Assembly (NCBI GenBank): GCA_024279135.1
Contig: JAJRRU010000039.1
Location: 186,001 to 250,000 of the forward strand
Origin: Alphaproteobacteria bacterium
Lineage (GTDB): Bacteria > Pseudomonadota > Alphaproteobacteria > Rhodospirillales > Casp-alpha2
Length of the DNA stretch: 64,000 nt
Direction: 5' to 3'
Shown here piece after piece: positions 59,483-63,510 of this stretch (positions are counted from its first letter, which is position 1; each line of letters begins with the position of its first letter). The notes below the pieces were generated by a model that saw only the letters and a list, made by a program, of their open reading frames with translations, had not been told where the DNA came from and did not search any database. The translations under genes and the position numbers were made by a program.

Positions 59483-59557
59483 TGGGGCGTGGCCAAGTGG
59501 TAAGGCACCGCTTTTTGGTAGCGGCATGCGCAGGTTCGAATCCTGCCGCCCCAGCCA
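59483..59557 (+). tRNA. tRNA-Gln (anticodon UUG)
   Basis: A full cloverleaf is visible. The acceptor stem TGGGGCG (59483-59489) pairs with CGCCCCA (59547-59553), with discriminator G and an encoded CCA to 59557. The anticodon stem CCGCT/AGCGG encloses a 7-base loop TTTTGGT, giving anticodon TTG (Gln, CAA). The T-loop GGTTCGAATCC is normal. A downstream island-like region suggests its 3' end may be an attachment site. Confidence 0.95.
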
Positions 59558-60038: not shown

Positions 60039-60749
60039 CTACAGAACCAAGCGCCCCTTCTTTATGCGGTTGCGACTTGATTGTGATAGGTTAATGCTGC
60101 TCTCAACCATGTCCAGAGTAGCCACCGCTGAATGATATGTGCGGAAAGATTCTGCCAATGCTTGATCAGTGATTTCTGGAGAGACCTGATCGTCTTGCCC
60201 TGTTGTGAGTGGAACACTTTCAAGTGATAAGCCGTTCGAGGCTAAATATGTTGTCACGATGACCTCAAACGTCATTGGCGGCCTGTGGTCCATATGGGCT
60301 TGCTCGTGGGAAATTCGCTTCCCCGTTACAGCACAGGTGACAAAACCGGCCACATCAGAATTCTTTGCAAAAAAGTCGTCTCGAGCCTTGTAGAGATCAA
60401 ACCTCACAACATTGCGAAAAGCCTGACTAACTTCCTCCTTACGGCTTGGTGCTCGTTGTGAAATACAATTCGGATAGGAGAAGTCTGTCCCAGAGCCATC
60501 AATGCGAAGAATACGGAAGCATTGCGTACCGTGTACGGTCATCATGACCTCGAAGTGACTTACACCACAGCCAATCTTTGCAGCATATTCAGTGTGCCGC
60601 TCAAGCAGTGCCAAAAGGTCAAAGCTGTCTTCATTAGAGACACGATCACCGGGTGTATACCGGTTCAGCATAGTCTTGAAGAAAACGGTAGCTCCTTTTT
60701 GTGTGCTGAAGCTGCGAGTGGCAAGCTCCACTGGGTTTCCACGTGCCAT
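60039..60749 (-). CDS. DUF3223/DCL-family protein with HNH-like residues
   Basis: 236 aa. Residues 8-100 fit the DUF3223 (DCL-like) domain: 'TRSFSTQKGATVFFKTMLNR', 'LLALLERHTEYAAKIGCGVS', 'HFEVMM' and 'CFRILRIDGSGTDFSY'. Residues 130-236 carry 'TCAVTGKRISHEQAHMDHRP' and 'NLSQSSRNRIKKGR', which resemble a stripped-down HNH nuclease (Cys139, D154-H155, then N...KG). The start codon directly follows the stop of the ATPase gene (TAA ATG), so they are translationally coupled. DCL-domain proteins are associated with RNA or nucleic-acid roles in plants. Nuclease activity here is inference. Confidence 0.75.
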   Translation of the reverse strand: MARGNPVELATRSFSTQKGATVFFKTMLNRYTPGDRVSNEDSFDLLALLERHTEYAAKIGCGVSHFEVMMTVHGTQCFRILRIDGSGTDFSYPNCISQRAPSRKEEVSQAFRNVVRFDLYKARDDFFAKNSDVAGFVTCAVTGKRISHEQAHMDHRPPMTFEVIVTTYLASNGLSLESVPLTTGQDDQVSPEITDQALAESFRTYHSAVATLDMVESSINLSQSSRNRIKKGRLVL

Positions 60750-63230
60750 TTACGCCTCCTCTACGACAAGTGCTTTAAAATCGAATTGTGCCTCGCATCT
60801 TAAACAAACTGGCTTGCTAAGCCCGAAAGGTCGCTTGAATCTGGACCGGTTACATTTTGAGCATACAAACTGACTCCGAAACATCTTAAACTCTTCCCAA
60901 CGGGCTTTCTCATCACCGATTGAACCGTCACCAAATGGGCCTTCTTGGAAATGACTCCCGAAATTTTCTACCACACCTTGTTGTAAAGAGTTTAAAAAGC
61001 GATTGTTGACGCCTGGTACGGGTTTGGCGCTTAATCCAGCATCCCGAAGAAAACCCGCTAACGCAGCAGCCAATTCGCTGCGTTCATAAGAGTAAGCCTT
61101 TTCCAAAGAGCGAATGCGAATATTGGTACCAAATTCACGGCACATTTTTAGCAACCATTCCTCTTCAGCTTGCCGCATTTCATTAGCAGCAGAAAGCCCT
61201 TGGTTCCAACGGTCTTCAATCATTACATCGGTCACTTTATCATCGGCAAATCGCGGGCCATAATCATGGTCAAGCCGAGTAATACGAGAGAATTGCCAGT
61301 CTTTAGCTGCAAGCTGATCCTTCAGATAACTGAAAAAACGTTCGTCATGGGTGGTGATAATTAATTGACAATCGCTGAACTCCGTTGCGATCATGCTGAC
61401 AATTGTACGTCGGTGCTCAGCGTCATAGGAAGTAACAATATCGTCGAGAGCGATGATTGGCGCTGCCTTGTTGAATTGTTTAATGGCGGCCAGTCGCAAT
61501 GCCAGAGCTACGGAATGAATTTGGGAATCGCTCAGATATCCTCCAGGCTGTACACCGGTTCTATTTTCTGCAAAGTCGATGACGAGATACAACCGCTGTT
61601 GATTTGTTTCTTCCCCGGAAGGCAACTCAAGGTGAATAGGAGCAGCATGATCGCCTTGAATTTGGCGATATATGCTATTCATGGGTGCTTGCAGAATATC
61701 AAGAAGCGTCTGAACTTTTTTGCGTATATCGGTCGAAATAGCATTTGCCTGTTCAATAAGCGAATCTGAGAGCGCGGCCAGTTCAGTTTGCGTTTTCAGA
61801 GCCAAATCACGATTTTCTTGCAATTCAAGCAACCTGTCGATCTTCGCTTTTGCTTTGCTGTAGGTATGCTCACCCTGATTATCTTCAATTTCAGATATTC
61901 GCCGATCAAGATTGACGACAAGACTTGAGAGCTCGGCGACTAGCAATTGTGATTCTGGAATGTCGACTAACGGCCAAGGATCAACAACAGCACTATAACT
62001 ATCAAGTGCCTCTAATAATTTTTCATAACCATCCCCTAGCAGCGCTGGCAATGCTAATAAAACCGCAATCAAATTCCTATGGGCTGTCGTCGCAGCAACA
62101 TTTGCAGCATCAAGAGCCTGCTTTGCAGTCGCATATTCAGCCAACCCCGCTAAATGCCCGGCCACATGCGCCCGGACTCCAGCTATGCTGCCAGCTTTGG
62201 ATTCAGTCAAATCTGTCATGCAGACCGGGCATGCGTCCAGGTCAGGGACACCTTCAGCGAACAGGGGTTCTGCGGCCTCCCAAATATCTTGAAAGACTGC
62301 TGTGGCGGCTTTGGCTTGCTCTTCGGCTTCCTTCGTTTCTGTCTGCGTCAATGATTCAACAGCCGCTTCGAAAGACGGAAGCGATCCACTGACCATCATT
62401 TCACCAGTATCTTCGTTTTCTTTTTGGTTATAAACAGCAACCGCTGCATTACGGATTTGTTTGAGTCCAACCAGACCAAGTTGATGTTCTTCGGCTTCAG
62501 CGGCAACAACAATAGCAACATAGGTTATATCTGATTGATCAAGGTTTCCAAGATTCAGCGTATCATCTAGTGGCGCAATGACCTCATCATTTATATATTC
62601 CAAAACATTATCAATGTGCCACTCTGTGACTGCATCAGCTGTTTCTTTTGCAAGCTGGACGTCGATCTGCTCCAGAGCCGACATATCCTCGGCAGACGCC
62701 TTCACCTGCTGTCGCAGGGCTCGCAGATTTCTCTGAAGCTCAACAAGAGGAGTAAGCTGAAGCCATTTAGCAACTTCTGCATAACGTTTTTCTGGAGTAT
62801 GATTCTCAACAAATGTCCGGAGCTCAAAGCCGCGAATTATAGGATCGGCGTTAAAACAGCCATTAACGGCAATAGAACACTCAGGCTGCTCACGTCGCCC
62901 TGGCCCGGCATCGCGAAAACCGTCGGTTACGGTTTGTCCTTTCTTGAAGGTGATTGAAACCCTCGGCTGAACACCATTCTCTTCGGCCAAATTGTGGGGA
63001 AGAGCTACAACGCCTGCGCTATTGTCCCTTGTTCTTTGACCGAGGCGTTCCAGTATCCCATTACTCGAGAACATAAACTCCAAACCGTCAATTAAGCTCG
63101 ATTTGCCTTTGCCATTTGGGGCGAACAAAGCTAAACAGCGCTTTTGGCTGAAATCAAAGCGCTTTGGTTGAAGAAAAGCCCTAAAGCCCTGAAGCTGTAA
63201 ATTCTTCATATAATACGAATTGTCAGTCAT
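60750..63230 (-). CDS. Rad50/SMC-like ATPase with CPVC hook and C-terminal zinc ribbon
   Basis: 826 aa from the ATG at 63230, which overlaps the upstream stop (ATGACTGA). N-terminal 'LQGFRAFLQPKRFDFSQK' and Walker A 'APNGKGKSSLIDGLEFMFSS' (residues 37-56) are split from the C-terminal lobe by helical regions, with a zinc-hook-like CPVC at 334-337. The C-lobe has the signature 'YLSDSQIHSVALALRLAAIK' (565-584), Walker B 'PIIALDDIVTSYDAEH' and H-loop 'TTHDERF' (626-632). A C-terminal extension of about 180 residues ends in a zinc ribbon (C790/C793, C809/C812). Likely a DNA- or RNA-engaging ATPase of defence or repair type. Base composition is A+T-richer than the core genes. Confidence 0.85.
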   Translation of the reverse strand: MTDNSYYMKNLQLQGFRAFLQPKRFDFSQKRCLALFAPNGKGKSSLIDGLEFMFSSNGILERLGQRTRDNSAGVVALPHNLAEENGVQPRVSITFKKGQTVTDGFRDAGPGRREQPECSIAVNGCFNADPIIRGFELRTFVENHTPEKRYAEVAKWLQLTPLVELQRNLRALRQQVKASAEDMSALEQIDVQLAKETADAVTEWHIDNVLEYINDEVIAPLDDTLNLGNLDQSDITYVAIVVAAEAEEHQLGLVGLKQIRNAAVAVYNQKENEDTGEMMVSGSLPSFEAAVESLTQTETKEAEEQAKAATAVFQDIWEAAEPLFAEGVPDLDACPVCMTDLTESKAGSIAGVRAHVAGHLAGLAEYATAKQALDAANVAATTAHRNLIAVLLALPALLGDGYEKLLEALDSYSAVVDPWPLVDIPESQLLVAELSSLVVNLDRRISEIEDNQGEHTYSKAKAKIDRLLELQENRDLALKTQTELAALSDSLIEQANAISTDIRKKVQTLLDILQAPMNSIYRQIQGDHAAPIHLELPSGEETNQQRLYLVIDFAENRTGVQPGGYLSDSQIHSVALALRLAAIKQFNKAAPIIALDDIVTSYDAEHRRTIVSMIATEFSDCQLIITTHDERFFSYLKDQLAAKDWQFSRITRLDHDYGPRFADDKVTDVMIEDRWNQGLSAANEMRQAEEEWLLKMCREFGTNIRIRSLEKAYSYERSELAAALAGFLRDAGLSAKPVPGVNNRFLNSLQQGVVENFGSHFQEGPFGDGSIGDEKARWEEFKMFRSQFVCSKCNRSRFKRPFGLSKPVCLRCEAQFDFKALVVEEA

Positions 63231-63510
63231 GTGCTTCATCCTCTTCCTGAGGAGCGGTACGATTACCGGCAAGGCTGATGATCGCTGCTTTAGCCTGCGC
63301 AACAGCATCTTGCGCCGGATCGGTTGTTAATAAATGCTCCTTGAGAATGTCAGCGAGGCCAACATCGACATCCTTGTTGGCGGACAATCTATCTCCAACA
63401 TTGTTCAGAAATTCTTCTGTCGTCTCTGTTGGTGCTGTTTCTGCCGTGGCTTCTTCGGCTGGTGCTGCCTCAGCAGGCCCACACTCGGCTGGCATATCTT
63501 CGGCTTCCAT
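63223..63510 (-). CDS. Small acidic protein, first gene of the island operon
   Basis: 95 aa from the ATG at 63510 (MEAEDMPAECG), which has a GAGG just upstream; longer frames starting at 63600 lack this. The N-terminal third is Ala/Glu/Pro-rich ('PAEAAPAEEATAETAPTETT'). The rest is probably helical ('NNVGDRLSANKDVDVGLADI', 'LKEHLLTTDPAQDAVAQAKA'). Its stop overlaps the ATPase start, so it is a small subunit or regulator of the ATPase. No family recognised. A possible promoter (TTGACC 63586-63591, 17 bases, TAGGGT 63563-63568, minus strand) lies upstream. Confidence 0.65.
   Translation of the reverse strand: MEAEDMPAECGPAEAAPAEEATAETAPTETTEEFLNNVGDRLSANKDVDVGLADILKEHLLTTDPAQDAVAQAKAAIISLAGNRTAPQEEDEAHD

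Follow-up and report, generated by a model that had tools for sequence, protein, structure and literature searches.

The 64-kb stretch of alphaproteobacterial DNA analysed here (the window) carries near its end three adjacent minus-strand genes, which encode a small acidic protein, a Rad50/SMC-like ABC ATPase with a zinc hook, and a DUF3223 protein. We compared this trio with related loci on individual contigs and plasmids (labelled L001 onward). The operon has the following features.

63223-63510, minus strand: small acidic partner gene, 95 amino acids, isoelectric point 4.05; ATG at 63510, stop codon ending at 63223
63223-63230, minus strand: 8-nt start/stop overlap of the small gene and the ATPase gene, reading ATGACTGA
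60750-63230, minus strand: Rad50/SMC-like ABC ATPase gene, 826 amino acids; ATG at 63230, stop codon ending at 60750
62220-62231, minus strand: CPVC zinc hook of the ATPase, residues 334-337; C334, P335 and C337 invariant in alignment A1
60876-61313, minus strand: predicted helical HEPN-like domain of the ATPase, approximately residues 640-785, with R686-x3-E690 and N756-x2-S759-H760; R686, E690, N756 and H760 invariant in A1
60777-60869, minus strand: C-terminal zinc ribbon of the ATPase (C790, C793, C809, C812); C790, C793 and C812 invariant in A1
60039-60749, minus strand: DUF3223/DCL (HamC-like) gene in the exchangeable third position, 236 amino acids
60462-60677, minus strand: DUF3223 domain, residues 25-96, by Pfam; structure 2k0m matched at Z 15.7
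60267-60335, minus strand: CxxTG...HMDHRPP.TF block, HNH-like by motif alone; the fold does not confirm it

An initial annotation of this DNA had read the three genes as a coupled operon, and the coordinates bore this out: the small gene and the ATPase gene overlap, and the DUF3223 ATG abuts the ATPase TAA directly, with no gap. The ATPase motifs that it listed are likewise present and aligned across relatives, namely Walker A (APNGKGKS), the CPVC hook, the signature (LSDSQ), Walker B (LDD) and the H-loop (TTHD). In Pfam the ATPase matched SMC_N (4.8e-18) and AAA_23 (3.9e-8); Rad50 and SMC were its nearest solved structures by profile, and PADLOC returned generic matches to many ATPase families, the best being LmuB at 92 bits. 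Alignment A1 (8 sequences, from clades about 20% identical) kept the Walker A lysine, both hook cysteines, the LDD and the H-loop histidine invariant, together with G658, R686, E690, R707, N756, H760, C790, C793 and C812 towards the C-terminus. A CPxC hook was found in every displayed relative covering this region (the L029 piece does not cover it). What the initial annotation had missed were the HEPN-like domain and zinc ribbon at the ATPase C-terminus and a tRNA-Gln island around the operon, both described below.

The conserved core of this operon is two genes, the small acidic protein and the zinc-hook Rad50-like ATPase. A scan of genome contigs with the window-clade alignment A2, whose two peptide patterns favour the window's own clade, recovered ATPase relatives of 48-68% identity at 36 loci, beta- and gammaproteobacterial ones among them. 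With the window's small protein as a tblastn query, 32 of the 36 gave a relative on the upstream side of the ATPase. Among the other four, the 5' region is missing from L067 and L069, while L073 carries a suitable small open reading frame (ORF) with the same overlap and L068 a decayed one. Of 37 window-clade loci whose ATPase is nearly complete, a script detected the 8-nt overlap itself in 34, and reading L047 by eye brings the count to 35. The exceptions are L051, where the small gene stops approximately 10 nt before the ATPase, and L006, where it is frameshifted.

The pair is also found well beyond this clade, reaching about 20% ATPase identity and the Bacteroidota, and wherever the 5' region of the ATPase can be read, the two genes almost always stand side by side. 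A tblastn search of plasmids with the ATPase gave 21 records, five from Bradyrhizobium at 60-62% identity and 16 more distant, of which 15 loci were fetched. With sampled genomes and one viral-collection contig added, the distant loci in which the 5' end of the ATPase can be read number 15 (L007, L008, L009, L011, L012, L013, L014, L016, L026, L027, L029, L030, L031, L033 and L094; L010, whose 5' part is lost, and L015, whose ATPase is broken, were excluded). In each of them a small ORF of approximately 60-81 codons terminates at the start of the ATPase gene, across it or shortly before it; that of L016 is unannotated, that of L031 stops some 15 nt short of the ATPase, and the L029 ATPase is in two pieces. 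When small-partner profiles from three clades (the window clade, a 9-sequence set and a 3-sequence set) were aligned with each other and with 30 column-shuffled controls each, the scores were 26.7 against a shuffled maximum of 13.9, 19.0 against 14.3, and 13.6 against 12.2, a clear excess in two comparisons and a marginal one in the third. Together, tblastn and profile alignment rule out a chance upstream ORF in the window clade and the 12 profile-compared distant loci. The ORFs of L011, L016 and L031 lie outside the profiles, and for L016 and L031 the support is position alone. Between loci carrying the trio, the ratio of nonsynonymous to synonymous substitution rates (dN/dS) was 0.09-0.45 for the small gene, 0.06-0.24 for the ATPase and 0.02-0.08 for DUF3223, in pairs with usable dS; for the latter two genes, pairs involving the window were saturated.

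While the initial annotation had taken the trio as the unit, and the coupling it saw is real, the conserved unit is thus a pair with an optional third gene. That third gene is exchangeable, being DUF3223, an HD-CE/GHKL gene, a Mrr-like nSTAND3 gene, or none of these. The co-occurrence search over genome loci showed that the trio does recur beyond close relatives, an intact, in-frame DUF3223 gene occupying the junction at 6 of the 36 loci (L043, L053, L054, L056, L060, L070). It is damaged in three others, by a one-base homopolymer shift in L071, by a frameshift in L047, and by a frameshift with displacement behind an HD-CE gene in L048. Among the five Bradyrhizobium plasmids it is intact in L003 and a remnant in four (that of L002 read by eye). 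An HD-CE/GHKL gene is present at 6 of the 36: L045 (where it runs off the contig), L048, L049, L052 (a stub), L055 and L057; the assignment was made by Pfam on L055, to which the others are 75-87% identical. An nSTAND3 gene with a Mrr-like N-terminus lies directly downstream in another 6 of 36 (L058, L062, L064, L065, L066, L074) and behind DUF3223 in L054, assigned by Pfam on L054, L062, L066 and the class-sample locus L028, with Mrr_cat just below cut-off in the last three. None of the three partner types was found in 10 of 36 (L042, L044, L046, L050, L051, L059, L061, L063, L072, L075); the L046 contig ends 315 nt downstream and L075 has a different AAA gene. Six of the 36 are fragments (L067, L068, L069, L073, L076, L077).

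On a quick ATPase tree, on which L071 was scored as intact DUF3223 and L048 as HD-CE, intact DUF3223 required 8 changes versus 8.3 in shuffles and is therefore scattered; the figures were 3 versus 6.6 for nSTAND3, 4 versus 5.7 for HD-CE and 3 versus 4.8 for DUF3223 remnants. The window's nearest neighbours on this tree are two Bradyrhizobium loci with DUF3223 remnants, plus L075. Another arrangement was seen on a Pseudohalocynthiibacter plasmid (L013:4520-10949), where the pair is followed after 44 nt by a 1240-amino-acid TPR protein with a PIN-TPR-GreABC domain.

The third protein of the window matched Pfam DUF3223 (1e-21) and PADLOC HamC2 (1.1e-54). The HNH-like residues noted earlier, D154/H155, do sit in a conserved block, AHMDHRPPMTFEVIVTT, which is invariant in 18 close sequences and more variable in distant ones. 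The nuclease fold implied by them found no such support: the AlphaFold model had a mean predicted local distance difference test score (pLDDT) of 61 with a poor C-terminal half, and VIA-align gave a good match for the N-terminal half alone (the 2k0m hit listed above), the remainder scoring at most 3.7. Because the C-terminal half is poorly modelled and the structural match is N-terminal, no HNH fold can be claimed.

DUF3223 is also a roaming accessory beyond Hachiman. We fetched eight non-trio loci, from 7 of 41 plasmid records plus one phage record. In L035 and L041 the gene comes after genes annotated as DUF1837 and helicase (Hachiman; HamB2 was confirmed for L041), in L037 it comes after an AAA_13/PDC-S06 ATPase, and in L040 it lies ahead of a UvrD helicase gene; no neighbour of these kinds is seen in L038 or L039. 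On an Ensifer plasmid (L036:491-5250) we noted an operon-like run of a 286-amino-acid protein, a PDC-M23B-type helicase and DUF3223, the first of these giving no PADLOC match at E up to 1e-10. An Azospirillum plasmid (L034:2990-5178) has a 498-amino-acid protein without a Pfam match immediately before DUF3223, possibly a further DUF3223-linked system. In the class sample, DUF3223 was found in 5 of 385 genomes, three beside HamB2, one the window's own, and one with no helicase within the 3.2 kb examined. In IMG/VR, 11 contigs (L083-L093, seven of them read) encode a 65-67% identical DUF3223 protein, and the neighbours scanned on three of these included a ParB-like/methyltransferase gene (L086, L091) and the terminase large subunit (L091, L092). 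Phages often place HNH nucleases near terminase genes. Viral contigs searched with the L037 and L034 DUF3223 proteins gave no match. In excerpts of PMC8565338, HamC is reported from 379 Hachiman systems, with a function unknown to PADLOC's authors, and a parallel is offered by a nuclease-protease pair that, in passages of PMC12799240, was repeatedly acquired by unrelated immune systems, Hachiman and AVAST.

These data bear on whether the third genes belong to the pair at all. It is possible, if not what we favour, that the pair is one system and that DUF3223, HD-CE and nSTAND3 are single-gene systems that landed beside it in defence islands; the swapping of third genes, the loci with none of the three, and the DUF3223 copies near terminase genes without the ATPase would all fit. 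Against this, the DUF3223 start abuts the ATPase stop in genera whose flanks differ in part. The window's DUF3223 protein is moreover 69-72% identical to trio copies versus 27-36% to five other aligned cellular copies, and strong purifying selection acts on the gene. Conservation between trio loci is higher for DUF3223 than for the ATPase, and the window's identity to these loci is approximately 70% for DUF3223 versus 61% for the ATPase.

The C-terminus of the ATPase suggests a second candidate effector. Of 15 displayed representatives, 14 keep the R of the R-x3-E motif, 14 its E and all 15 the final H; the three residues are invariant across 31 window-clade sequences (alignment A3). An AlphaFold model of residues 638-826 built with 31 sequences predicts a helical bundle followed by the ribbon (pLDDT 74, predicted template modelling score 0.73), and VIA-align matched it to 2q00 (Z 6.1, 110 residues, 3.4 Å), 7bxo (Z 5.3, 105 residues, 4.0 Å) and 5yep (Z 4.9, 102 residues, 4.0 Å), the next hit scoring 2.8. 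The title of 7bxo reads toxin-antitoxin; we take 7bxo and 5yep to be HEPN-MNT toxin-antitoxin pairs, and are less sure of the identity of 2q00. No Pfam family reached its cut-off with C-terminal fragments, L031 giving a weak DUF4145 match (0.087). Pfam AAA_13 scored 19.8 bits on the window ATPase, below its cut-off of 36, while the distant relative L007 passes at 47.9 bits. A precedent exists in RloC, which excerpts of PMC2610378 describe as a Rad50-like zinc-hook ATPase regulating a C-terminal RNase, with Arg692-x3-Glu696 and His737 each required, and HEPN families that retain H and lose R are described in parts of PMC3710099.

Several observations weigh against an RNase assignment. The VIA-align scores, at most 6.1, fall in the tool's warning range for common helical arrangements, and a Foldseek search with the ATPase C-terminus returned nothing below E 1. 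In place of the HEPN Rx4-6H motif the window reads VVENFGSH, in which N and H are retained and E replaces R (the distant L016 reads RNEVGAH at this position). The spacing from E690 to H760 is 70 residues versus 41 in RloC, and hhalign to the AAA_13 protein L037 covered the Walker B to H-loop region alone, not the triad. Taking the R-x3-E...H motifs, the weak fold matches, the RloC precedent and the H-only HEPN families together, we infer that the C-terminus is a putative RNase domain of RloC-like, possibly weakened, type.

The operon lies within a 10.5-kb island at a tRNA gene, which also carries an integrase. Two plus-strand features mark the insertion site.

59483-59557, plus strand: tRNA-Gln(TTG), island insertion site; comes after the conserved 58448-59371 gene in relatives
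59541-59557, plus strand: att-like 17-nt repeat, the last 17 bases of the tRNA, with an exact second copy at 70041-70057 (extrapolated window coordinates, outside the window)

In 200 shuffles of the downstream sequence the longest common word was 12, versus the 17-nt repeat. A phage-type integrase (approximately 68176-69930) lies just inside the second repeat; encoded in between are a resolvase and a borderline AbiEii-like protein. The latter, a nucleotidyltransferase at 65993-66796 on the contig continuation (L025:6494-7297), comes after a 116-amino-acid protein, and the two may form a second defence or toxin-antitoxin unit. The 58448-59371 gene is followed by tRNA-Gln in 17 of the 29 relatives' loci scanned (29/36 other genomes with a match); because this order is kept in relatives, the tRNA-Gln site is ancestral and the trio was most likely acquired by insertion. 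An empty island site was not found, and the gene beyond the second repeat was unmatched in 40 other family genomes. The guanine-plus-cytosine (GC) content per kb is 44-52% across the island, 51-56% before it, and 41 and 38% in the two kb after the second repeat (70001-72000). GC alone therefore fails to mark the far end, being lower still beyond the repeat, and the mobile region may extend past it.

The presence of the ATPase is patchy. It was found in 7 of 385 class genomes and 3 of 398 in the sampled phylum search, all of the same class and the window's own genome included in both counts (two candidates per genome were scored), and in 0 of 60 other relatives at E <1e-20. A single-protein scan of genome contigs with the window ATPase gave 15 pattern matches with no relative among them; in viral contigs the A2 scan found none and the A1 scan one locus, L094. 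Loci labelled Mycobacterium sp. KBS0706 (L072) and Bacillus sp. 2B10 (L076) carry the pair or its start; on the tree, the branches around L072 are otherwise proteobacterial. A label error, contamination or transfer is possible.

The suggestion that such loci lie near defence genes held in part. The setting is mobile, and genes of defence type (restriction-modification, DNA methylase, restriction, AbiE, DarT, TIR and abortive-infection were counted) are annotated nearby in 6 of 15 fetched plasmid loci (L003, L008, L011, L012, L014, L015), with a TniQ transposon at one more.

We favour, if with no great confidence, the view that this is a mobile system directed against phages or plasmids, in which a two-gene sensor core gates effectors, its defence role being suggested by context. 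Gene order, coupling, conservation, mobility and the swapping of the third gene are observed, whereas the defence role, the complex of three proteins proposed in the initial annotation, DNA sensing and the RNase and nuclease activities are inferences. In such a system the Rad50-like ATPase would dimerise via its head and CPVC hook and sense DNA, most likely ends or replication/recombination structures. The co-translated acidic protein would bind the ATPase and restrain it or set stoichiometry. Once activated, the ATPase would release its C-terminal HEPN-like, RloC/PrrC-type RNase domain and/or the third protein, which at the window would be DUF3223 with a putative nuclease domain and in relatives HD-CE/GHKL or Mrr-like nSTAND3. 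Other findings count against this interpretation. Many pairs stand without any third gene found, so that joint action of pair and third gene is at most putative. The pair also decays, with a frameshifted small gene in L006 and both genes decayed in L068. Finally, 9 of the 15 plasmid loci have none of the listed neighbour types, counts that were set against no background rate.

A role in DNA repair or element maintenance, with an SbcC/RecF-like ATPase serving the plasmid or island, DUF3223 as a processing nuclease and no immunity, seems unlikely to us. It draws on Rad50 and SMC as nearest structures, on SbcCD genes annotated downstream in two Bradyrhizobium plasmid loci (similar genes were seen elsewhere by eye), and on partition and relaxase genes nearby; the patchy presence, the island with its borderline AbiEii-like gene, and the swapping of third genes of types known from immune systems (STAND NTPase, HD-CE/GHKL) argue against it. 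Least probable is a toxin-antitoxin-like stabiliser that keeps the island or plasmid with an incidental effect on phage, the ATPase with its RNase-like domain as toxin and the acidic protein as antitoxin: the upstream acidic partner, overlapping start, plasmid and island location and toxin-antitoxin fold matches (7bxo by title, and 5yep) would suit it, but a simple toxin does not usually carry ATP-gated Rad50 heads, the third genes are left unexplained and the antitoxin role is putative.

Extending the defence reading, the pair might be an undescribed immune core, in which a zinc-hook ATPase with a degenerate RloC-type RNase domain is held by an acidic silencer and offers a 3' effector socket. 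DUF3223 would then be a general plug-in to several NTPase sensors (the pair, Hachiman II, the AAA_13/PDC-S06 ATPase and the PDC-M23 helicase), and the 65-67% identical phage copy near the terminase gene its source or a decoy; as a whole we consider this doubtful. The pair is a testable candidate for a modular immune ATPase, a single sensor core with several swapped partners, spanning plant symbionts and marine, acetic-acid and environmental bacteria. DUF3223, filed by PADLOC as Hachiman HamC, is a wider accessory, and learning what it does could shed light on several systems at once. Should the C-terminal domain prove to be an RNase, RloC-like DNA-damage-gated RNA cleavage would be wider than the AAA_13 family.

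That no described system matches the trio, as first proposed, agrees with our searches: PADLOC, Pfam and NCBIfam scans gave no profile specific to pair or trio, none of the three proteins matches NCBIfam above its curated cut-off, and the small acidic protein has no Pfam match. No published description of either was found in the portions of the literature covered, which did not extend to the ABC ATPase survey of Krishnan et al. 2020, possibly including this family. Septu (PtuAB) and PARIS (AriAB) share the plan of an ATPase with a putative nuclease partner, whereas the ATPase here carries a zinc hook and is extended at its C-terminus; filing as Septu was rejected because PtuA/AriA matches in PADLOC were weak and generic (PtuA best 4.6e-8) and the partner had no PtuB/AriB match. 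Hachiman type II (HamABC) also has a DUF3223 protein (HamC) as an extra gene, which here comes after an ABC ATPase instead; no HamA nuclease or HamB helicase was among the PADLOC matches listed for the other two proteins, so this filing was rejected too. Lamassu (LmuABC) shares a layout that combines an SMC-like zinc-hook ATPase, a small protein and a variable effector gene. It differs in that the Walker B of our family is LDD (in 15 displayed relatives and as the commonest forms of 37 window-clade rows), without the usual Lamassu E-to-Q, which is general though not universal in sections of PMC10586767, and the ATPase bears a HEPN-like domain and ribbon. The LmuB profile gives 92 bits on the window ATPase, yet L037, an AAA_13 protein, gives 64 bits with LmuB profiles too, and the two partner proteins gave no PADLOC match to LmuA or LmuC at E up to 1; lacking these matches and the E-to-Q Walker B, the locus was not filed as Lamassu. 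RloC/PrrC, a Rad50-like ATPase that bears a HEPN anticodon nuclease at its C-terminus, shares the split ABC head, the C-terminal R-x3-E with a later conserved His and a weak AAA_13 match, and RloC the CxxC zinc hook. We rejected this filing as well, since the AAA_13 score is below cut-off; beyond this and the longer E-to-H spacing, the system described here differs in its two-gene core with an acidic partner, its extra zinc ribbon and its exchangeable third gene.

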